Positions 226 to 57,144 of a stretch of DNA of 64,000 bases are shown one piece after another (the first letter of the stretch is position 1; every line of letters begins with the position of its first letter). The notes beneath the pieces are model-generated. The model was given only the letters and a program-made list of their open reading frames with translations, made no database searches and was not told the DNA's origin. Position numbers and translations under genes: made by a program. The stretch is from Parasegetibacter sp. NRK P23 (GTDB lineage: Bacteria; Bacteroidota; Bacteroidia; Chitinophagales; Chitinophagaceae), in the NCBI RefSeq assembly GCF_023721715.1, contig NZ_JAMDLG010000001.1, positions 251,889 to 315,888 of the forward strand, read 5' to 3'.

Positions 226-260
226 GGCCGTTGCACCGTAGCGCCGTTGTGTGAAATAAA
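226..260 (-). repeat. REP-like palindromic repeat copy
   Basis: The sequence GGCCGTTGCACCGTAGCGCC continues with GTTGTGTGAAATAAA. It closely matches 23589-23628 and, in reverse complement, the CGCAACGGCGC-ACGACGCCACG family seen at 23491, 52111, 52149, 55788 and 55859. It is probably a member of a dispersed REP-like family. Confidence 0.6.
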
Positions 261-22725: not shown

Positions 22726-23370
22726 ATGCCCATCTTCGCACTCGATCAGCAACTTTTATTCCCACCGGTACACCTCGCCGAGCCCGATGGCTTACTCGCC
22801 ATGGGCGGCGACCTCAGCGAAGAACGGCTGCTCATCGCCTACCGCAATGGCATCTTCCCCTGGTACGAAGGCGATACGCCGCTCTGGTGGAGTCCCGACC
22901 CGCGTTTCGTGCTGTTCCCCAATGAACTTAAGGTTTCCAAAAGCATGCGAAGCCTCCTCCGTCAACAGAAATTTGATTTCACGGTCAACAAAGCTTTCCC
23001 CGAAGTGATCCGTGCCTGCCGGAAAACCCCGCGTCCCGGCTACGACGGCACCTGGATCAACGACGACGTGGAACGCGCCTACACACGGCTTCACCTGAAA
23101 GGATATGCGCATTCCGCCGAAGCCTGGGAGAACGGTGAACTCGTGGGTGGTTTGTACGGGATAAGGATGGGTACTTTCTTCTTCGGAGAGAGTATGTTCT
23201 CGCGACAGAGCAATGCCAGCAAATACGCGTTCATTCTTTACGTGCAGCAACTGGCTTCGGAAGGCGTTTCCCTGATTGATTGCCAGGTATATACCGAACA
23301 CCTCGAGAGCCTGGGGGCGAGGATGATACCGCGGGCGGAATTTGTGGGGATGCTGGGAAGGGGGTTGTGA
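22726..23370 (+). CDS. aat: Leucyl/phenylalanyl-tRNA--protein transferase
   Basis: About 214 residues. It adds Leu or Phe from charged tRNA to the N-terminus of proteins starting with Arg or Lys. Family blocks visible are FPPVHLAEPDGLLAMGGDLSEERLLIAYRNGIFPWYEGDTPLWWSPDPRFVLFP, GTWINDDVERAYTRLHLKGYAHSAEAWENGELVGGLYGI and GESMFSRQSNASKYAF. The frame is open from 22639, inside clpS, but ATG 22726 (MPIFALD) gives the family N-terminus and follows GTGGAGGAA in the end of clpS. It is cotranscribed with clpS. Confidence 0.95.
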   Translation: MPIFALDQQLLFPPVHLAEPDGLLAMGGDLSEERLLIAYRNGIFPWYEGDTPLWWSPDPRFVLFPNELKVSKSMRSLLRQQKFDFTVNKAFPEVIRACRKTPRPGYDGTWINDDVERAYTRLHLKGYAHSAEAWENGELVGGLYGIRMGTFFFGESMFSRQSNASKYAFILYVQQLASEGVSLIDCQVYTEHLESLGARMIPRAEFVGMLGRGL

Positions 23371-23490
23371 TTGCTTTTTTTCACGCGATTAGTTCTTGCT
23401 TCGCAACGCGGAGGTGCAAGGAGCGGTTGCGTTTTTCGGGAAGGCTTTTGTTTCGGCATGGGGATAGAGGGCCGTTTTCAGTTAAGGATA

Positions 23491-23520
23491 TTTTCTCGCA
23501 ACGGCGCTACGACGCAACGC
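23491..23520 (+). repeat. REP-like palindromic repeat copy
   Basis: TTTTCTCGCAACGGCGCTAC followed by GACGCAACGC. It matches the left arm of the palindromes at 52111 and 55788. It is inverted relative to 23589-23628, leaving about 68 bases between. Confidence 0.65.
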
Positions 23521-23588
23521 ATAAAGTATTTTCAAACATGTTGCATTCGCTGCCACTTATCTGTTTAATGTAAGCTCGTATTAAAACA

Positions 23589-23628
23589 GGCCGTTGCGCC
23601 GTTGCGCCGTTGCGTGAAATAAAAAAAC
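23589..23628 (-). repeat. REP-like repeat with tripled GCCGTTGC unit
   Basis: GGCC GTTGCGCC GTTGCGCC GTTGCG and then TGAAATAAA. It matches 226-260 almost base for base apart from the number of GTTGCGCC units. Together with 23491-23520 it could form a long hairpin. Confidence 0.65.
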
Positions 23629-23663
23629 TCCAAAAGGAAAGCGCTCCAAACACAAACAACGTT

Positions 23664-23764
23664 GCGAGGCATGAAGCAATGCGTCTCCGCCCCCTTGCGC
23701 TGCGCAGTGCGAAGCACAAAGCAGTTGCGAGACTGCGAGGCACGAAGCAGGAAGCAATCGCGAG
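23664..23764 (+). repeat. Degenerate GCGAGGCACGAAGCA repeats
   Basis: Three diverged units are seen: GCGAGGCATGAAGCAATGCG (23664), GCGAAGCACAAAGCAGTTGCGAG (23709) and one starting GCGAGGCACGAAGCAGG (23735) and ending AATCGCGAG. The unit starts and ends with GCGAG-like ends, so each is partly palindromic. This is a different family from the REP-like repeat next to it. Confidence 0.5.
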
Positions 23765-23782
23765 AAATTGCCCCGAAAACAC

Positions 23783-49046: not shown

Positions 49047-50162
49047 ATGAAAAAGAAAGTCGCGGTAATATATGGAGACGGGATCGGTCCCGAAGTCACC
49101 AAGCAGTCGATGAAAGTGCTGGACGCCATTGCACAACGCTTTGGCCACGAGTTTGAATATGAGTTCTGCCTGATGGGCGCCGATGCCATCGACAAAACCG
49201 GTTCTCCCCTTCCCGATGAAACACTCGAAGTGGTACTGAACAGCGATGCGATCCTCTTCGGAGCGATTGGTCACCCCAAATACGATAATGACCCGTCCGC
49301 TAAAGTACGTCCTGAACAAGGGCTGCTGAAACTGCGGAAATCTCTGCAATTGTTTGCCAACATCCGCCCGGTAACTACGTACCAGGCACTGCACCATCTC
49401 TCCCCCCTCAAACCTAAGAACCTTGAGGGGGTGGATGTGGTCATCTACCGCGAATTAACAGGTGGTATCTATTTCGGTAAGAAAGAACTTTCCGAAGATG
49501 GTAACACCGCCATGGACGACTGTACCTATCACCGCCACGAGATTGAACGCATCGCCAAACTCGCGTTCGAACAAAGCATGCAACGCCAGAAGAGATTGAC
49601 ATTGGTTGACAAAGCCAATGTACTGGAAACTTCCCGCTTATGGCGCGCAGTGGTACGCGAAATGGCCGCGAACTACCCTGAAGTTGCCGTGGATTATATG
49701 TTCGTGGACAACGCCGCGATGCAGATGATCGTGAACCCCAAACAATTCGATGTGATCCTCACCGAGAACATGTTTGGCGATATCATCAGCGACGAGGCCA
49801 GTGTGATCACCGGATCACTGGGTATGTTGCCCTCCGCATCGGTTGGAACCGGTACCGCCATGTTCGAACCCATCCACGGTTCTTACCCGCAGGCCGCGGG
49901 CAAAGACATCGCCAACCCGCTTGGCTCCATTCTTTCCGCCGCGATGATGCTCGACTACTTCAACATGTTTGAAGAAGCGAAACTGGTGCGCGCCGCTGTG
50001 GAATGGACTTTGGAAAACGGATTCGTAACAAAGGATATCGACCCCGTGAACAATTATACCACCACCACTATTGGTGACCTGGTAAAGGATTTTGTAGAGA
50101 ATAAGATTCCCTCGGCGATCAACAAAAGCAACCTGTCGCTGAGCAAATCCACCATCATCTGA
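49047..50162 (+). CDS. leuB: 3-isopropylmalate dehydrogenase
   Basis: This encodes 371 residues. It oxidises and decarboxylates 3-isopropylmalate with NAD. The N-terminal VIYGDGIGPEVTKQSMKVL, the substrate helix LRKSLQLFANIRPV, the NMFGDIISDEASVITGSLGMLPSAS segment and the GTAMFEPIHGSYPQAAGKDIANPLGSILSAAMML motif are typical. It is the last gene before the ilv leader region. Confidence 0.97.
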   Translation: MKKKVAVIYGDGIGPEVTKQSMKVLDAIAQRFGHEFEYEFCLMGADAIDKTGSPLPDETLEVVLNSDAILFGAIGHPKYDNDPSAKVRPEQGLLKLRKSLQLFANIRPVTTYQALHHLSPLKPKNLEGVDVVIYRELTGGIYFGKKELSEDGNTAMDDCTYHRHEIERIAKLAFEQSMQRQKRLTLVDKANVLETSRLWRAVVREMAANYPEVAVDYMFVDNAAMQMIVNPKQFDVILTENMFGDIISDEASVITGSLGMLPSASVGTGTAMFEPIHGSYPQAAGKDIANPLGSILSAAMMLDYFNMFEEAKLVRAAVEWTLENGFVTKDIDPVNNYTTTTIGDLVKDFVENKIPSAINKSNLSLSKSTII

Positions 50163-50185
50163 AATGAACAGGAACAAAAATAAAT

Positions 50186-50216
50186 TTTGGAGCAAGGCAG
50201 CCAATTGCTATGTTTG
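50186..50216 (+). promoter_or_regulatory. Promoter of the ilv leader and ilvDBNCA
   Basis: TTTG (50186-50189), 19 bases, TATGTTTG (50209-50216): a full consensus promoter. Transcription should start near 50223, twelve bases before the leader peptide ATG, giving a leader RNA of about 175 bases up to the terminator. Confidence 0.75.
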
Positions 50217-50234
50217 CAATACAGCAGAATCGCT

Positions 50235-50345
50235 ATGTTCAGAAAAGGAATCAATATTAATGTCGTAAACATCGTTGCAGTGGTCATTACCATTGTGGCT
50301 GTCATTATTATTATTCCAGAACATCCAGGCGCGCTGTCAATGTAG
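50235..50345 (+). CDS. Ile/Val-rich leader peptide of the ilv operon
   Basis: 36 codons from ATG to TAG, not previously called because of the length. Nine are Ile and seven Val, including four ATT in a row (codons 24-27). The second half reads VITIVAVIIIIPEHPGALSM. E. coli IlvL, the leader of ilvGMEDA, has VISVVVIIIPPCGAALGRG at the same place, so the resemblance includes the Ile run, the following Pro and the GA(A)L tail. It lies between its own promoter (50186-50216) and the terminator before ilvD. I infer a ribosome-sensing leader peptide; the alternative is a small single-helix membrane protein. Confidence 0.75.
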   Translation: MFRKGININVVNIVAVVITIVAVIIIIPEHPGALSM

Positions 50346-50363
50346 CATTAGTAAGCACAACAT

Positions 50364-50397
50364 AAAGGCCCGCCTCTCAAAAGGCGGGCCTTTTTTC
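50364..50397 (+). terminator. Attenuator terminator before ilvD
   Basis: AAAGGCCCGCCT (50364-50375) pairs with AGGCGGGCCTTT (50382-50393) over 12 bp with a 6-base loop, followed by TTTTTTC. It starts 18 bases after the leader stop codon and ends 24 bases before the ilvD ATG. A competing helix is possible: AGGCGCGC (50327-50334, inside the leader ORF just after the Ile run) pairs with GCCCGCCT (50368-50375) at seven of eight positions. This would act as the antiterminator when a ribosome stalls at the Ile codons. Confidence 0.85.
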
Positions 50398-50420
50398 ATT
50401 TATATCAATACTAACCAAGA

Positions 50421-52103
50421 ATGGCACAGGAACTGAACAAGTACAGTAAAACGATCACACAGGATCCCACGCAACCAGCCGCGCAGGCCATGTTGTACGG
50501 GATTGGTCTGACGGACGAGGACCTCGCGAAGGCGCAGGTGGGCATTGTGAGCATGGGCTACGATGGCAACACCTGTAATATGCACCTGAACGAACTCGCT
50601 GCCGTCGTCAAAAAAGGCGTATGGGAGCAGGACCTTGTTGGTCTCGTTTTCAATACGATCGGGGTGAGCGATGGTATCTCCAACGGAACCGATGGTATGC
50701 GCTACTCCCTGGTGAGCCGTGATGTAATTGCAGATTCCATTGAAACCGTTTGTGGCGCGCAGTATTATGATTCACTGATCGCGATTCCCGGTTGCGATAA
50801 GAATATGCCCGGATCCATCATCGCGATGGGCAGGCTGAACCGTCCGGCCATCATGGTATATGGCGGCACCATTGCTCCCGGTCATTACAAGGGCCAGGAC
50901 CTGAACATTGTTTCTTCTTTTGAAGCCCTCGGGCAAAAAATAGCCGGACAGCTGGACGAAGCTGATTTCAAAGGCATCGTCATGAACTCCTGCCCTGGTG
51001 CCGGTGCATGCGGTGGTATGTATACCGCGAATACCATGGCATCGGCCATTGAAGCGCTGGGTATGAGTCTCCCCTATTCTTCTTCCAACCCTGCCCTGAG
51101 CAAGGAGAAGAAGGAAGAATGTGTTGCCGCGGGCAAAGCCATCCGCCTGCTGATGGAGAAAGACATCAAACCCCGCGATATCATGACGCGCGAGGCTTTC
51201 GAGAACGCCATCGTTACCCTGATGGTACTCGGCGGAAGCACCAACGCTGTACTGCACCTCATCGCCATGGCGAAAAGTGTGGATGTTCCCTTAACACAGG
51301 ATGACTTCCAGGCTGTAAGCGACCGTGTTCCCCTGCTGGCCGATTTCAAACCCAGCGGTAAATACCTGATGCAGGACCTGCACGAACATGGTGGTGTACC
51401 TGCGGTAATGAAATACCTGCTGGAGAAAGGATTGCTCCACGGCGATTGCCTTACCTGCACCGGTAAAACGCTGGCGGAAAACCTTGCGGAAGTACCTTCT
51501 CTCGATTTCGATAAACAAAAGATCATCTATCCGCTGGAGCAGCCATTGAAAGCCACCGGCCACCTTCAGATACTGTACGGTAACCTCGCCGAAGGCGGCA
51601 GTGTAGCCAAGATCACCGGTAAAGAAGGTGAACGCTTCGAAGGACCCGCACGCGTATTTGATGGCGAACACGCCCTGATTGCCGGTATCCAGAGCGGTCG
51701 TGTGAAAGAAGGTGATGTGGTGGTGATCCGCCAGGTTGGTCCCAAAGGCGCGCCCGGTATGCCCGAAATGCTGAAACCCACTTCCGCCATCATCGGCGCG
51801 GGGCTAGGTAAATCTGTGGCGCTCATCACCGATGGCCGCTTCAGCGGCGGAACACACGGTTTTGTGGTAGGGCACATCACACCAGAATCGCACGATGGCG
51901 GATTACTCGCTTTCGTTCACGACGATGATCCCATTACTATTGATGCGGTGAACAACAAGCTTACCCTTCATGTAAGTGAGGAAGAGATCGCCAAAAGGAA
52001 AGCCAACTGGAAACAACCCGCCTTAAAAGCACAGAAAGGCGTTTTATATAAATATGCGAAATGCGTTTCCACAGCCGCGGAAGGCTGTGTTACAGACGCG
52101 TAA
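50421..52103 (+). CDS. ilvD: Dihydroxy-acid dehydratase
   Basis: This encodes 560 residues. It dehydrates dihydroxy acids to the 2-oxo acids of valine and isoleucine using an Fe-S cluster. Cluster cysteines are in [17 protein letters not shown] and [37 protein letters not shown] near the end is conserved. It is the first structural gene of ilvDBNCA, directly after the attenuator. Confidence 0.97.
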
Positions 52104-52110
52104 TATTCCA

Positions 52111-52171
52111 CGCAACGGCGCTACGACGCCACGCGTAACATGCTCTAACGTGGCGTCGTAGCGCCGTTGCG
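52111..52171. repeat. REP-like perfect palindrome between ilvD and ilvB
   Basis: The 23-base arms 52111-52133 and 52149-52171 are exact reverse complements, with a 15-base loop. The arm begins CGCAACGGCGCTACG and ends ACGCCACG. In the transcript it would make a very stable hairpin ending 16 bases before the ilvB ATG. It belongs to the family at 226, 23491, 23589 and 55788. Confidence 0.8.
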
Positions 52172-52187
52172 AGAAAAACAACATAAA

Positions 52188-53936
52188 ATGAGTCAGTCAA
52201 CAATCATACAGAAAACGACCAAACCCGCACCACAGCAACCCGCGGCACAAACCCTTTCCGGTTCGCAGGCCGTATTGGAATGTTTCCTTGCGGAAGGTGT
52301 GGATACCATTTTCGGTTACCCCGGCGGCGCCATCATGCCCATCTATGATGCGCTGTACGATTACAAAGAAAAGCTGGAGCACATCCTCGTTCGCCACGAA
52401 CAGGGTGGTATTCATGCCGCGCAGGGTTACGCCCGCGCATCCGGTAAAACAGGTATCGTGTTCGCCACTTCAGGTCCCGGTGCCACCAACCTGGTAACGG
52501 GTCTTGCAGATGCGATGATCGATAGTACACCATTGGTATGTATCACCGGTCAGGTATTCGCGCACCTGCTTGGTACCGATGCGTTCCAGGAAACAGACGT
52601 GATCAACATTACCACACCCGTTACCAAATGGAACTACCAGGTAACCGACGCGAAAGAGATCCCGAGCGTGTTGGCCAAAGCCTTCTACATTGCAGGCAGC
52701 GGTCGTCCGGGTCCTGTATTGATCGATATCACCAAGAATGCCCAGCTCGAAAAATTCGAGTTCCAGGGTTATGAAAAATGTGACCATATCCGCAGCTACC
52801 GTCCCAAGCCGGTGGTAAGGAAAGAATACATTCAGCAGGCGGCCGAACTCATCAACAGTGCGGAGAAGCCATTCATTCTGCTGGGGCAGGGCGTGATCCT
52901 CGGTAAAGCGGAGAAAGAATTCATCACCTTCGCGGAGAAAAGCGGTATCCCCGTAGCCTGGACCATCATGGGCATGAGTGCTATTCCTACCAACCATCCG
53001 CTGGCGGTGGGTATGCTGGGCATGCACGGCAACTACGGTCCGAACGTACTCACCAATGAAGCCGATGTGATCATCGCCGTGGGTATGCGCTTCGACGACC
53101 GCGTTACGGGCCGCCTCGATAAGTACGCCAAACAGGCGAAGATCGTCCACCTCGATATTGATCCCGCTGAAATAGATAAGAACGTTCAGTCCACCGTTCC
53201 TGTTTGGGGCGATTGCAAGGAAACCCTTCCCCTGCTTACCGCCGCCATCGAAACAAAAGTATACCCCCAGTGGCTGCAGAAATTCCGCGATTACCAGCAG
53301 CAGGAAGAAGAAACCTGTATTCAGCCGGAAATGAATCCTGAAGGCGAAGTGCTTTCCATGGCGGAAGTAATCAATGAGCTGAACCAGCTTACAAAAAATG
53401 AAGCCATCATCGTAACGGATGTGGGTCAGCACCAGATGGTGGCCTGCCGTTACGCGCAATACAATCAAAGTAAAAGCAACATCACTTCAGGCGGACTGGG
53501 CACTATGGGCTTTGCTTTGCCCGCAGCCATCGGCGCTAAGTTCGGCGCACCGGAACGTACCGTGGTAGCCATTATCGGAGACGGCGGGTTCCAGATGACG
53601 CTCCAGGAACTGGGCACCATCATGCAGAGCAAAGTGAATGTGAAAATACTGATCCTGAACAACGAGTTCCTGGGTATGGTGCGCCAGTGGCAGCAACTGT
53701 TCCACGACAAACGCTACTCTTTCGTGAACATTGAAAGTCCGGACTTCGTAGCCGTTGCCAAAGGCTATTACATTGATGGACAACGCGTGCGGGAACGAGA
53801 AAAGTTGCGTGAAGCCCTGAAGACTATGCTGGAACACGATGGCGCTTACCTGCTGGAAGTAATGACCGGCAAAGAAAACAACGTGTTCCCGATGGTGCCG
53901 CAGGGATGCAGTGTAAGTGAAATAAGGCTGAAATAA
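52188..53936 (+). CDS. ilvB: Acetolactate synthase large (catalytic) subunit
   Basis: 582 residues. With thiamine diphosphate it makes acetolactate from pyruvate, or acetohydroxybutyrate from pyruvate and 2-oxobutyrate. The catalytic Glu is E71 in LVRHEQGG. The ThDP motif GDGGFQMTLQELGTIMQSKVNVKILILNN is intact, as is FGYPGGAIMPIYDAL. A TTG at 52167 extends the frame into the palindrome; ATG 52188 (MSQSTIIQ) is preferred. The residues before about 25 form a flexible extension rich in Pro, Thr and Gln. Confidence 0.96.
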   Translation: MSQSTIIQKTTKPAPQQPAAQTLSGSQAVLECFLAEGVDTIFGYPGGAIMPIYDALYDYKEKLEHILVRHEQGGIHAAQGYARASGKTGIVFATSGPGATNLVTGLADAMIDSTPLVCITGQVFAHLLGTDAFQETDVINITTPVTKWNYQVTDAKEIPSVLAKAFYIAGSGRPGPVLIDITKNAQLEKFEFQGYEKCDHIRSYRPKPVVRKEYIQQAAELINSAEKPFILLGQGVILGKAEKEFITFAEKSGIPVAWTIMGMSAIPTNHPLAVGMLGMHGNYGPNVLTNEADVIIAVGMRFDDRVTGRLDKYAKQAKIVHLDIDPAEIDKNVQSTVPVWGDCKETLPLLTAAIETKVYPQWLQKFRDYQQQEEETCIQPEMNPEGEVLSMAEVINELNQLTKNEAIIVTDVGQHQMVACRYAQYNQSKSNITSGGLGTMGFALPAAIGAKFGAPERTVVAIIGDGGFQMTLQELGTIMQSKVNVKILILNNEFLGMVRQWQQLFHDKRYSFVNIESPDFVAVAKGYYIDGQRVREREKLREALKTMLEHDGAYLLEVMTGKENNVFPMVPQGCSVSEIRLK

Positions 53937-54008
53937 TCTTGAATGTTGGATGTTGGATGTTGAATGGGAGAATACATCATTTAAATCCAGATTCTAAAAT
54001 CATCAGAA

Positions 54009-54599
54009 ATGCAAAAACAGGAATTCACCATAACGGTTTACACAGAGAACCACATCGGTTTGCTGAACCGCATCGCGATCATCTTTTCGCGCCGTAAAAT
54101 AAACATCGAGAGTCTGAATACCTCTCCTTCCGAAGTGGATGGCATCCACCGTTTCACCATCGTGATCAACGAAACGGAAGACGTGGTGCGCAAACTGGTG
54201 CGTCAGATTGAGAAACAGGTGGAAGTGCTGAAGGCTTACTTCAATACCGAAGAAGAGATCGTTTGGCAGGAACTGGCGATGTACAAGGTTTCCACCGATG
54301 AGATCGCAGAGAAAGTTAAGGTGGAACGTTTGCTCCGCGAGTATGGCGCTCGCGCCGTAGTGATCCGCAAAGACTATACGGTATTTGAAACCACGGGGCA
54401 CCGGGAAGAAACAGAAAAACTGGTAAAAGTACTGGCGCCTTACGGACTCATAGAATTCGTACGCAGCGCACGGGTAGCCATCATCAAAGCCAGCGCGGGC
54501 TTCCACGATAAACTCCGTGAATTTGAAAGAAGAGAGCCCGGAGAAGAAGTGATCGAGAACGAATACCTCGACAAACAGGAAGAAGTATTTACCATGTAA
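54009..54599 (+). CDS. ilvN: Acetolactate synthase small (regulatory) subunit
   Basis: This encodes 196 residues. The N-terminal ACT domain (EFTITVYTENHIGLLNRIAIIFSRRKINIESLNTSPSEVDGIHRFTIVI) binds the feedback amino acid, and the second domain (about 85-175) activates the large subunit. The final ten residues or so (ENEYLDKQEEVFTM) are an acidic tail. The 72-base gap to ilvB holds direct repeats of ATGTTGGATGTT at about 53943-53966. Confidence 0.95.
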   Translation: MQKQEFTITVYTENHIGLLNRIAIIFSRRKINIESLNTSPSEVDGIHRFTIVINETEDVVRKLVRQIEKQVEVLKAYFNTEEEIVWQELAMYKVSTDEIAEKVKVERLLREYGARAVVIRKDYTVFETTGHREETEKLVKVLAPYGLIEFVRSARVAIIKASAGFHDKLREFERREPGEEVIENEYLDKQEEVFTM

Positions 54600-54663
54600 A
54601 CTGCTTTTCAATCATAAAAACTGATAAACTTTTTAATCTTAAAACAATCTAACAAAACAAGCT

Positions 54664-55728
54664 ATGGCTAAATTAAATTTCGGCGGGGTTGAAGAAAACG
54701 TTGTGACCCGCGAAGAATTCCCGCTTGCCAAAGCGCAGGAAGTATTGAAGAACGAAACAGTGGCAGTAATTGGTTACGGCGTACAAGGTCCGGGCCAGGC
54801 GCTGAACCAGAAAGATAACGGCATCAACGTGATCGTTGGTCAGCGGAAGAATTCCAAAACATGGGACAAAGCCGTTGCCGACGGATTCGTTCCCGGAGAA
54901 ACCCTGTTCGAAATTGAAGAAGCCCTCGAGCGTGGTACCATCATCTGCTACCTGCTGAGTGATGCCGCACAAATCGAACTGTGGCCCACTGTAAAGAAGC
55001 ACCTCACTGCCGGTAAAGCACTCTACTTCTCTCATGGTTTCGGTATCACTTTCAACGAACAAACAGGCATCATTCCTCCTGCTGACGTAGATGTGTTCCT
55101 GGTGGCCCCCAAAGGTTCCGGTACTTCCCTGCGCCGCATGTTCCTGCAAGGCCGTGGTCTGAACTCCAGCTACGCCATCTTCCAGGATGCTACAGGTAAA
55201 GCAAAAGAAAGAGTGGTGGCCCTCGGTATCGCTGTAGGAAGTGGATACCTCTTCGAAACAGATTTCCGCAAAGAAGTATTCTCCGACCTCACCGGTGAAA
55301 GAGGAACTTTGATGGGCGCTATCCAAGGCATCTTCGCCGCCCAGTACGAAGTGCTGCGCAGTAAAGGCCATACGCCTTCCGAAGCGTTCAACGAAACAGT
55401 GGAAGAACTCACGCAGTCCCTTATGCCCCTCGTTGCAGAAAACGGCATGGACTGGATGTACGCCAACTGCTCCACTACCGCGCAACGCGGCGCACTCGAC
55501 TGGTGGAAAAAATTCAAAGACGCGACCAAACCCGTGTTCGAAGAACTCTACGAAAGCGTTGCTACCGGTAAAGAATCTCAGCGTTCTATCGATTCCAACA
55601 GCCAGGCTGATTACCGCGTGAAGCTGGAAGCCGAACTGAAAGAACTCCGTGAAAGCGAAATGTGGCAGGCAGGTAAAACTGTGCGTAGCCTTCGTCCGGA
55701 GAACCAGAAGGTAGCGGCAGAAGCATAA
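54664..55728 (+). CDS. ilvC: Ketol-acid reductoisomerase
   Basis: This encodes 354 residues. It isomerises and reduces acetolactate with Mg and NAD(P)H. The Rossmann motif is GYGVQGPGQALNQKDNGINVIVGQRKNSKTW, where GYGVQG is a variant of the commoner GYGSQG and Gln-Arg follow the second strand. The metal-binding segments FETDFRKEVFSDLTGERGTLMGAIQG and FNETVEELTQS (Asp and Glu ligands) are intact. It is shorter than the two-domain E. coli enzyme. Confidence 0.96.
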   Translation: MAKLNFGGVEENVVTREEFPLAKAQEVLKNETVAVIGYGVQGPGQALNQKDNGINVIVGQRKNSKTWDKAVADGFVPGETLFEIEEALERGTIICYLLSDAAQIELWPTVKKHLTAGKALYFSHGFGITFNEQTGIIPPADVDVFLVAPKGSGTSLRRMFLQGRGLNSSYAIFQDATGKAKERVVALGIAVGSGYLFETDFRKEVFSDLTGERGTLMGAIQGIFAAQYEVLRSKGHTPSEAFNETVEELTQSLMPLVAENGMDWMYANCSTTAQRGALDWWKKFKDATKPVFEELYESVATGKESQRSIDSNSQADYRVKLEAELKELRESEMWQAGKTVRSLRPENQKVAAEA

Positions 55729-55760
55729 TTATATTTCCCGCAGAAGTGCTGGATTTTCTT

Positions 55761-55885
55761 TTCACGCAAAGACGCAGGAGGTAGTGGTTTCTCGCAACGG
55801 CGCAACGACGCCACGTGAACACTCTCCTCCTGCGTTCTTCCAAAAAACGCATCAGCGCCGCGTCGTTGCGCCGTTGCGAGAAAAA
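55761..55885. repeat. REP-like composite palindrome between ilvC and ilvA
   Basis: Left arm TTTCTCGCAACGGCGCAACG plus ACGC (55788-55811) is the reverse complement of 55859-55882 over 24 bases. An inner pair uses CGCAGGAGG (55772-55780) and CCTCCTGCG (55826-55834), and CACGCAAAGACGC at 55763-55775 belongs to a second repeat type. The right arm ends about eight bases before the ilvA ATG. Confidence 0.75.
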
Positions 55886-55890
55886 ACAAA

Positions 55891-57144
55891 ATGGCAACAA
55901 CCACCCACATGAAACCCCTCGAATTCCACAAAGCAGCGCTGCGACTGAAAAAGGTTGTATCGAGAACACCCCTCATGCACAACCTCAACCTCTCGCGCAA
56001 ATACCACTGCAATGTGTTCCTGAAAAGAGAGGACCTGCAGGTGGTACGTTCCTACAAACTCCGCGGCGCTTACAATATGATGAGCAGCCTGCCGGAAGAA
56101 CAACTGAAGAACGGCGTGGTATGCGCCAGTGCCGGTAACCACGCGCAGGGCTTCGCCTTCTCCTGTAAGAAGCTCGGCGTGAAAGGCGTGGTGTTCATGC
56201 CCGTGATCACACCCAAACAAAAAGTCACCCAAACGAAAATGTTCGGGGAAGACAATATCACCATCCAACTGGTGGGCGATACATTCGACGATTGCGCTAT
56301 CGCCGCTAAAAAATTTACGGAAGAAAACGGGATGACATTCATCCCTCCTTTCGATGACCACCGCATCATCGAAGGACAGGGCACCGTGGCCCTCGAAATA
56401 CTGGAAGACCAGGATGATGTCGATTTCCTGTTCGTGCCCGTTGGTGGAGGCGGACTCGCAGCAGGCGTCGGTTCCTATTTCAAAACTTTCAGTCCCAAAA
56501 CAAAAATCATCGGCATTGAGCCCGAAGGCGCTCCTTCCATGAAAAAAGCACGCGAAGCAGGCCATCCGGTTACCCTGGAAAGCATCGACCGCTTTGTAGA
56601 TGGCGCCGCCGTTAAACGTGTGGGTGAACTCACTTTCTCCATCTGCCAGGAAGTGCTGGATGAAATAGAAACCGTTCCCGAAGGAAAGGTTTGTTCCACC
56701 ATCCTGAAATTGTACAATGAAGACGCGATTGTGGTGGAACCCGCAGGTGCATTGTCCATCGCGGCCCTTGATGATTACGCTGACCAGATCAGGGGCAAGA
56801 ATGTTGTTTGTGTGGTAAGCGGCAGCAACAACGATATCGCCAGGATGCAGGAGATCAAAGAAAGATCGCTGCTCTATGAAGGTTTGAAACACTACTTCAT
56901 CATCCGCTTCGCGCAACGCCCGGGCGCATTGAAACAATACCTGAACGAAGTACTCGGTCCCACAGACGATATCATCCGCTTCGAGTTCATGCAGAAGAAC
57001 AACAAAGAAACCGGTCCCGCACTGGTAGGTGTTGAATTACAAAACGCGGAAGATTATGAAGTACTCCTCAACAAAATGATCAGCTTACAGATCGATTATA
57101 CGGAATTGAATAAAGACGATAAACTCTTCGGTTATCTTGTATAA
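55891..57144 (+). CDS. ilvA: Threonine ammonia-lyase (biosynthetic type)
   Basis: This encodes 417 residues. It makes 2-oxobutyrate from threonine, the entry to isoleucine. The PLP lysine is in KREDLQVVRSYKLRGAYNMM, and the Gly-rich loop VPVGGGGLAAGVGSYF is clear. The C-terminal about 95 residues (HYFIIRFAQRPGALKQYLNEVLGPTDDIIRFEFMQKNNKETGPALVGVEL) form one ACT-like regulatory domain, compared with two in E. coli IlvA. The gene joins the ilv block to the thr block and is the last gene before the thr leader. ATG at 55909 (MKPLEF) is a possible later start. Confidence 0.95.
   Translation: MATTTHMKPLEFHKAALRLKKVVSRTPLMHNLNLSRKYHCNVFLKREDLQVVRSYKLRGAYNMMSSLPEEQLKNGVVCASAGNHAQGFAFSCKKLGVKGVVFMPVITPKQKVTQTKMFGEDNITIQLVGDTFDDCAIAAKKFTEENGMTFIPPFDDHRIIEGQGTVALEILEDQDDVDFLFVPVGGGGLAAGVGSYFKTFSPKTKIIGIEPEGAPSMKKAREAGHPVTLESIDRFVDGAAVKRVGELTFSICQEVLDEIETVPEGKVCSTILKLYNEDAIVVEPAGALSIAALDDYADQIRGKNVVCVVSGSNNDIARMQEIKERSLLYEGLKHYFIIRFAQRPGALKQYLNEVLGPTDDIIRFEFMQKNNKETGPALVGVELQNAEDYEVLLNKMISLQIDYTELNKDDKLFGYLV

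Follow-up and report, generated by a model that had tools for sequence, protein, structure and literature searches.

Structure of the ilvD–ilvB junction

The ilvD and ilvB genes are located in the same orientation on the stretch of DNA that was analyzed (64,000 nt at its full length, hereafter the window), and an inverted pair of repeat arms, referred to as a dyad, lies in the gap that separates the ilvD stop (52103) from the ilvB ATG (52188). The features of the junction and the other arm copies discussed here are listed below, with mismatches counted against the family pattern described in the following section.

50421..52103, forward strand: ilvD, the upstream gene (from the ORF list and tblastn to relatives)
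52106..52133, forward strand: left 28-nt arm, with an exact 23-nt core at 52111–52133; 3 mismatches
52134..52148: loop of 15 nt, separating the two arms
52149..52176, reverse strand: right 28-nt arm, with an exact core at 52149–52171; 1 mismatch
52188..53936, forward strand: ilvB, counted from the ATG 3′ of the hairpin
55788..55883: second dyad of the ilv operon, in the ilvC–ilvA gap; perfect 24-nt arms with 48 nt between them
23492..23619: third dyad of the window; 28-nt arms, 89% complementary, with a 72-nt spacer
229..256, reverse strand: lone arm copy; 3 mismatches

The two cores were found to be exact reverse complements of 23 nt each around the 15-nt loop, and when two mismatches were allowed, the pairing widened to 52106–52176 (28-nt arms, 93% complementary). 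The RNA of positions 52101–52190 was predicted to fold at −49.8 kcal/mol (z −8.83), and none of 200 shuffled sequences was equally stable. The first-pass annotation, which had described two exact 23-base inverted arms that form a very stable hairpin in the ilv mRNA and end 16 bases before the ilvB ATG, is borne out in its coordinates, complementarity, stability and distance. The listed ilvB ORF starts at a TTG (52167) within the right arm.

A scan of the window for inverted pairs (arms of at least 14 nt, separation of up to 150 nt) returned 12, the first of which was the ilvD–ilvB dyad. The next two, at 23492–23619 and 55788–55883, are elements of the same kind that had not been noted earlier, and the latter stops 7 nt short of the ilvA ATG (55891). 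The 23-nt arm gave 6 matches in the window at up to 3 mismatches, against a mean of 0.00 over 100 shuffles. A third motif, resembling GCGATTGCTTCGTGCCTCGCA, occurs in several degraded copies (4–5 mismatches) around the dyad at 23492–23619 (region 23360–23770), and similar motifs were found inside nested elements at other loci.

When positions 50000–57000 were compared with Rfam, nothing scored above the gathering score; the best match, mir-5366 (48.3 bits vs 73), was rejected as a microRNA identity because it fell below that score and reflected a generic long stem. Carriage by plasmids was likewise rejected, with zero plasmid matches to the ilv dyad. Upstream of ilvD, the leuB–ilvD gap (50235–50396) contains a 36-codon, Ile/Val-rich leader, MFRKGININVVNIVAVVITIVAVIIIIPEHPGALSM, followed by a terminator, GGCCCGCCT...AGGCGGGCC-TTTTTT; this layout is evidently that of a leader-peptide attenuator of the ilv operon. 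An attenuator-like layout was also seen by eye in gaps of the relatives L035, L036, L037, L048 and L109.

Copy number and unit of the repeat family

The ilvD–ilvB palindrome belongs to an interspersed repeat family, of which it is one compact dyad. Uniqueness of the arm in the genome, which the first-pass annotation had named as the observation that would speak against a REP-like palindrome, was not what was found: a 22-nt arm gave 81 matches at up to 3 mismatches in its own genome, an assembly of 4.83 Mb in 32 contigs that is 99.87% complete; the control with the reversed pattern gave 0. In the same genome, the 28-base pattern TTTCTCGCAAMGRCGCWAMGRCGCAAMG was matched 145 times when 3 mismatches were allowed, again with 0 for the reversed pattern. 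From 73 stretches taken around the TTTCTCGCAAMGRCGCWAMGRCGCAAMG matches listed (about 100 of the 145 places), 130 units at up to 4 mismatches were obtained and aligned without gaps.

As shown by this alignment, conservation rises sharply at base 1 (T) and stops at base 28 (G), with TTTCTC at the start of the unit, CAACG at its end and a faint AT-rich signal outside the 28-mer. Variation is greatest at sites 13 (A/G), 17 (T/A/C) and 21 (A/G). An 8-nt period, GCAACGRC, runs through the 28-nt head, which is followed by a weakly conserved tail; an iterated nhmmer profile extended through this weak tail to a unit of about 71 nt in total and gave 256 matches in 93 loci of the own genome, the loci having been chosen for their arms. 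When the single consensus arm was folded as DNA, no self-fold was obtained (−1.7 kcal/mol, z +1.05; reverse complement, z +1.93). The strings GTAG and CGTC were observed within the paired arm and never as a terminal tag.

Two contigs (C2 and C7) open with a near-identical stretch and a repeat cluster (L250:1–460 and L184:1–450), and a third (C17) terminates near a pair of the sister arm described below. The assembly seems to break at repeat clusters in these three contigs.

Arrangement and matching of paired arms

Most arms occur in pairs: 101 of the 130 are paired at less than 450 nt, and the other 29 have no neighbor within that distance. Adjacent pairs less than 450 nt apart (n = 55) comprised 31 in +− order, 13 in −+ order, 6 in ++ order and 5 in −− order, so that 44 of the 55 were inverted (p = 9e-6). 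In the 31 +− dyads, in which TTTCTC is outermost, the spacers range from 15 to 388 nt, with the shortest, 15 nt, in the ilv copy, and 11 of them form a group with spacers of 141–159 nt. A further 12 dyads show the opposite, −+ arrangement around a center of 4–32 nt.

The interiors of most +− dyads are dissimilar to one another, though relatedness is seen among a few (89% over 116 nt and 81% over 70 nt). When the 31 interiors were compared by BLAST at E 0.01, 13 pieces were obtained, two of them long, with segments at the ends partly shared; in an alignment of whole interiors, the ends alone could be aligned.

Both arms carried the same bases at the three variable sites in 20 of 43 pairs, where 4.5 would be expected. 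According to pair type, agreement was seen in 10 of 12 −+ (tail-out) pairs (2.8 expected), in 6 of 11 +− pairs with spacers of up to 100 nt (1.4 expected) and in 4 of 20 +− pairs with longer spacers (1.75 expected, p = 0.08). Close arms are thus matched and distant arms hardly so, a pattern that fits a joint origin of the two arms, repair between nearby inverted arms and selection for pairing alike.

Genomic placement and nesting with a sister arm

Gene neighborhoods were assigned by simple longest-ORF calls. Convergent junctions accounted for 39 of the 75 clusters examined, codirectional junctions for 30 and divergent junctions for 2; of the other four, 3 are without a neighbor and 1 is within a small ORF. 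Since a circular chromosome has as many convergent as divergent junctions, the divergent share of 2 in 41 is far from an even split (p = 8e-10); the window itself contains 4 junctions of each type. Arm midpoints fell inside called ORFs of at least 100 aa in 6 of 130 cases. At codirectional junctions, the cluster was nearer to the upstream stop than to the downstream start in 20 of 29 (p = 0.06), with one of the 30 clusters (L162) dropped for a negative gap. One ORF between two arms (L113) encodes a Rieske protein, and its candidate identity as a transposase was rejected on this ground.

A sister arm, GCAAAGGAGCAAGGACGCAA, gave 93 matches at up to 2 mismatches in the own genome (control, 0). 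Fifty-two of these make up 26 pairs of neighbors no more than 500 nt apart, all of them in +− order. In 13 of 32 loci, which had been chosen for such nesting, sister arms were located outside arms of the first type; in L253 and L167 they enclose a complete inner pair from either side, and when a shorter pattern was used the same was seen in L250 and L251. The clusters of the sister arm (n = 21) showed a weaker junction bias than the first arm, with 7 at convergent, 9 at codirectional and 3 at divergent junctions and the other 2 at contig edges. By eye, the centers of L251, L253 and L255 contain terminator-like hairpins.

Distribution in related genomes

The genus is sampled by a single genome, the one studied here. 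Within the family, 13 of 98 genomes (own included) contained matches at 2 mismatches, 116 of them in the own genome and 8 in the next best. When a broader pattern was used at 1 mismatch on a sample of the phylum, matches were observed in 24 of 296 genomes (own included) from 11 families, with 0 for the control. Elsewhere in the phylum, GCAACG is often replaced by GCAAAG or GCAGAG. A looser 23-mer applied to the 18 repeat-bearing genomes also matched in reversed form in three, 8 times in one and once in each of the other two, so that these counts are less clean. At 30 loci from these 18 genomes (two of the loci, L218 and L236, being the same place), the arms were mostly intergenic, with 4 at convergent, 5 at divergent and 21 at codirectional junctions; the convergent bias is absent from these loci. 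A BIME-like array in one of these loci (L243:1444–1729, from G265, another genome of the phylum) is made of six arms whose orientation alternates strictly. Among viral contigs, the exact arm consensus was found in 0 and a GCARAG variant in 5.

To place the ilv dyad, 80 named ilvB loci of relatives, nearly all from Bacteroidota, were compared. The ilvD gene was upstream on the same strand in 77 of the 80, and the arm was found at none of the 80 at up to 5 mismatches. The ilvD–ilvB gaps of these relatives (30–400 nt) folded with z below −3 in 6 of 36, as did the ilvN–ilvC gap in 7 of 34 and the ilvB–ilvN gap in 4 of 22; by contrast, the leuB–ilvD (7 of 10) and ilvC–ilvA (13 of 18) gaps are specially structured. 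A conserved regulatory hairpin of the ilvD–ilvB junction was rejected because the corresponding gaps carry no special structure. With the arm absent from the 80 loci and the gaps not specially structured, the hairpin is thus not one that this junction has inherited. The ilvD–ilvB dyad fits a lineage-specific acquisition; the insertion for which the first-pass annotation suggested comparing this gap is consistent with the absence of the arm, among relatives that all lie outside the genus. In the same gap of a Mucilaginibacter relative (L047), a different palindrome, TTGTCATTGCGCGCGATTGCTTTGTACCTCGCAATGACAA, was observed, which we take to resemble REPs of the CGTC/TGTC type.

Search for an associated transposase

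The own genome gave one Y1_Tnp match (34.8 bits, C1:1552526), in a 210-aa ORF (L031:1306–1938) whose neighbors are presumably mnmA and ssb. The protein scored 21.6 bits with the IS200 model (cutoff 55) and 13.4 bits with that of RAYT (cutoff 80). It has DQLH in place of HUH, and a Lys occupies the position of the IS200 Tyr; in four relatives used for comparison (L187, L194, L200 and L212), the HUH motif was intact, with both His residues, in all four. Lacking the first His of HUH and the catalytic Tyr, this Y1/IS200-type protein would be a fossil or a domesticated enzyme. A sequence search of the PDB with the protein returned zero matches. In the 7.8 kb around the gene, the sole arm at up to 7 mismatches is about 3.5 kb away (L143).

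The 18 repeat-bearing genomes gave 79 Y1 matches, distributed over 17 of them. At 30 of these 79 loci, no arm (23-mer, 3 mismatches) was found beside the Y1 gene; at one of the 30, an arm lies at the 1.5-kb edge. The genome with no Y1 match, G293, contains 22 arm matches. The first-pass annotation had suggested a test for an associated tyrosine transposase (RAYT); none was found in the own genome or at the 30 loci examined among the 79 Y1 matches of relatives, and the link was rejected as far as tested, given the degenerate own protein and the absence of flanking arms.

Predicted effect on the ilv operon

The hairpin is followed by AGAAAAACAACAT, which contains no U-run, and for this reason it is not a U-tract terminator; it was not listed by a terminator scan that covers loops of 3–8 nt, the dyad having a loop of 15. 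In the modelled RNA, the mean unpaired probability around the ilvB start was 0.75 with the element and 0.70 without it, and around the ilvA start it was 0.52 and 0.55, respectively. Direct occlusion of the ilvB start is not predicted by this model, and the earlier suggestion that the hairpin may affect ilvB translation finds no backing in a fold that keeps the start open. The ilv dyad is most likely an incidental intercistronic hairpin.

REPs have been proposed to act as barriers to 3′-exonucleases that favor the upstream mRNA, and the malE–malF REP forms a stable structure in a polycistronic mRNA. By analogy, the hairpin could protect the upstream ilvD mRNA. Segments of E. coli operons are described, in the cited part of PMC5927463, as carrying protective RNA structures that are generally in coding regions and frequently conserved. 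The ilv hairpin resembles these as a stable fold in a polycistronic mRNA that could shift the stability of segments, here known from sequence; unlike the conserved structures in that part of PMC5927463, it lies between genes and was not found in relatives.

Explanations for the repeat family

Selection might keep the dyads as hairpins at mRNA 3′ ends or as bidirectional barriers to transcription or decay, including a regulatory role between ilvD and ilvB. The strong avoidance of divergent junctions, the matching of paired arms, the long perfect stems and the presence of two copies in one operon would agree with such a role; however, the junction bias is also explicable by selection against insertions in promoters, and the matching by joint origin or inverted-arm repair. 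T-rich sides were few (at least 5 T in 8 bases on 3 of 62 sides of +− dyads and 3 of 24 sides of −+ dyads; at least 5 A on 26 of the 62), and the ilvD–ilvB gap of relatives is without a conserved hairpin. A selected function is judged unlikely on this balance.

The 31 dyads with TTTCTC outermost, the 11 spacers of 141–159 nt and the partly related interiors (13 BLAST pieces, with 89% over 116 nt at best) recall an ordinary MITE, mobilized by a DDE transposase and ending in terminal inverted repeats of 28 bp. Most interiors, however, do not match one another, 12 dyads are reversed in arrangement, and 29 of the 130 arms are solitary within 450 nt. Direct target duplications of 5, 6, 8 or 9 nt were found in 0 of 31 +− and 0 of 12 −+ dyads, and shorter ones in the +− dyads numbered 3 at 2 nt, 0 at 3 nt and 1 at 4 nt. 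We regard a MITE as improbable.

The same absence of target-site duplication (0 of 31 at 5, 6, 8 and 9 nt) is what an HUH enzyme would leave, and together with the high copy number, the intergenic inverted dimers and the Y1_Tnp-related protein at C1:1552526 it would suit a canonical REP/RAYT system, in which the dyad is a REP dimer (REPIN) mobilized by a Y1 tyrosine transposase. A Bacteroidetes Y1 subclass, 2.6, is moreover described in the cited passage of PMC6006769 as having atypical flanking structures that are copied elsewhere in the genome. Against this system stand the score of the own protein (13.4 bits vs the cutoff of 80), with DQLH for HUH and Lys for Tyr, the distance of about 3.5 kb to the nearest arm, the 30 Y1 loci of relatives of which none is flanked by arms, the 22 arms of G293 with zero Y1, and a single unit that does not fold (z +1.05); it is very improbable here. 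A Rho-independent terminator or attenuator within the ilv operon, suggested by the very stable GC-rich hairpin, can practically be set aside, given the AGAAAAACAACAT that follows with no U-run, the missing entry in the terminator scan (loops 3–8 only) and the operon's evident attenuator, which lies elsewhere, upstream of ilvD.

The preferred reading, to which we assign a probability of roughly 0.72, is a scattered REP/BIME-like repeat that has spread without a resident active RAYT and forms an incidental hairpin in the ilv operon, with a predicted stabilization of the ilvD-side mRNA. The units would have spread as selfish or neutral mosaic repeats, like REPs and BIMEs, by a mechanism that may need no resident active RAYT, and they would have been tolerated at the 3′ ends of genes. 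Once transcribed, the ilv pair would form an intercistronic hairpin without a U-tract, which would most likely leave transcription into ilvB and the ilvB start unaffected; by blocking 3′-exonucleases, it may render the ilvD-side mRNA steadier than the ilvB-side mRNA. The weak matching of arms beyond 100 nt, the weak preference for stops, the absence of the junction bias in other genomes, its weaker form for the sister arm and the simple longest-ORF basis of the gene calls count against this reading. So do the related interiors of some dyads (89% over 116 nt and 81% over 70 nt, for example), which a mobile cassette would also produce.

More tentatively, and with a good deal less confidence, the arms could represent a phylum-wide, RAYT-independent class of REP-like repeats, with 8-nt-periodic arms (GCANNGRC) that are palindromic only as inverted pairs, lineage-wise diversification (GCAACG, GCAAAG, GCAGAG) and nested concentric inverted repeats at gene 3′ ends and terminators, spread perhaps by template switching between inverted arms and not by transposition. 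A REP-like family for which neither a self-folding unit nor, so far, a cognate transposase was found raises the question of what copies the arms, and the distance-dependent matching of paired arms offers a testable lead on the copying. Dispersed hairpins of this kind can also silently alter operon mRNA stability and break assemblies.

Comparison with known systems

MITEs of Porphyromonas gingivalis are reportedly non-coding, dispersed elements with inverted terminal repeats. The arm family is similar to MITEs in its inverted ends, non-coding nature and scattered distribution, and differs from them in its mostly unshared interiors, in the target duplication that was not seen and in the presence of both arm orders.

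REPs tagged with GTAG or CGTC are presented in the cited sections of PMC3733652 as self-folding stem-loops of 20–40 bp with an unpaired tag, and those of the CGTC type, reported there also in Bacteroidetes, as being without a dedicated transposase. As with the REPs and BIMEs described in those sections of PMC3733652, the arms are short, high-copy and intergenic, form inverted dimers and clusters, and are biased toward unidirectional and convergent junctions; as with the CGTC REPs described there, no dedicated transposase was found for the arm family among the Y1 loci examined. Unlike the tagged REPs of the same sections, the 28-nt unit is untagged, has an 8-nt period and forms a hairpin only from two units.

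The short units in inverted pairs are also reminiscent of REPINs. RAYT genes are stated, in the part of PMC2817692 cited here, to be always flanked by two inverted REPs; differing from the systems described in that part, no arm-flanked RAYT gene was found in the own genome or at the 30 examined of the 79 Y1 matches in relatives. The atypical structures flanking Y1 genes of subclass 2.6 (PMC6006769, cited passage) are alike by description, in that copies of them occur elsewhere in the genome. In a table row of the RepRanger survey of REPs (PMC12306157, tabulated part), many predicted sequences are given for three Bacteroidota species, a likeness at the level of the table entry. A description of the arm family was not found in searches of open-licence PMC papers (supplements and figures apart), which leaves its absence unproven.

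The REP-like character proposed by the first-pass annotation holds for the number of copies, their placement between genes, their inverted pairing and their spread, and does not extend to a self-folding unit, a GTAG/CGTC tag or a RAYT. High-copy intergenic inverted pairs and mosaics, by which REP/BIME-like repeats are broadly described, are present in the arm family, and none of the three narrower marks of a REP (self-folding, a terminal tag and an arm-flanked Y1 gene) was found as tested; the family is therefore named a REP/BIME-like repeat and not a REP.
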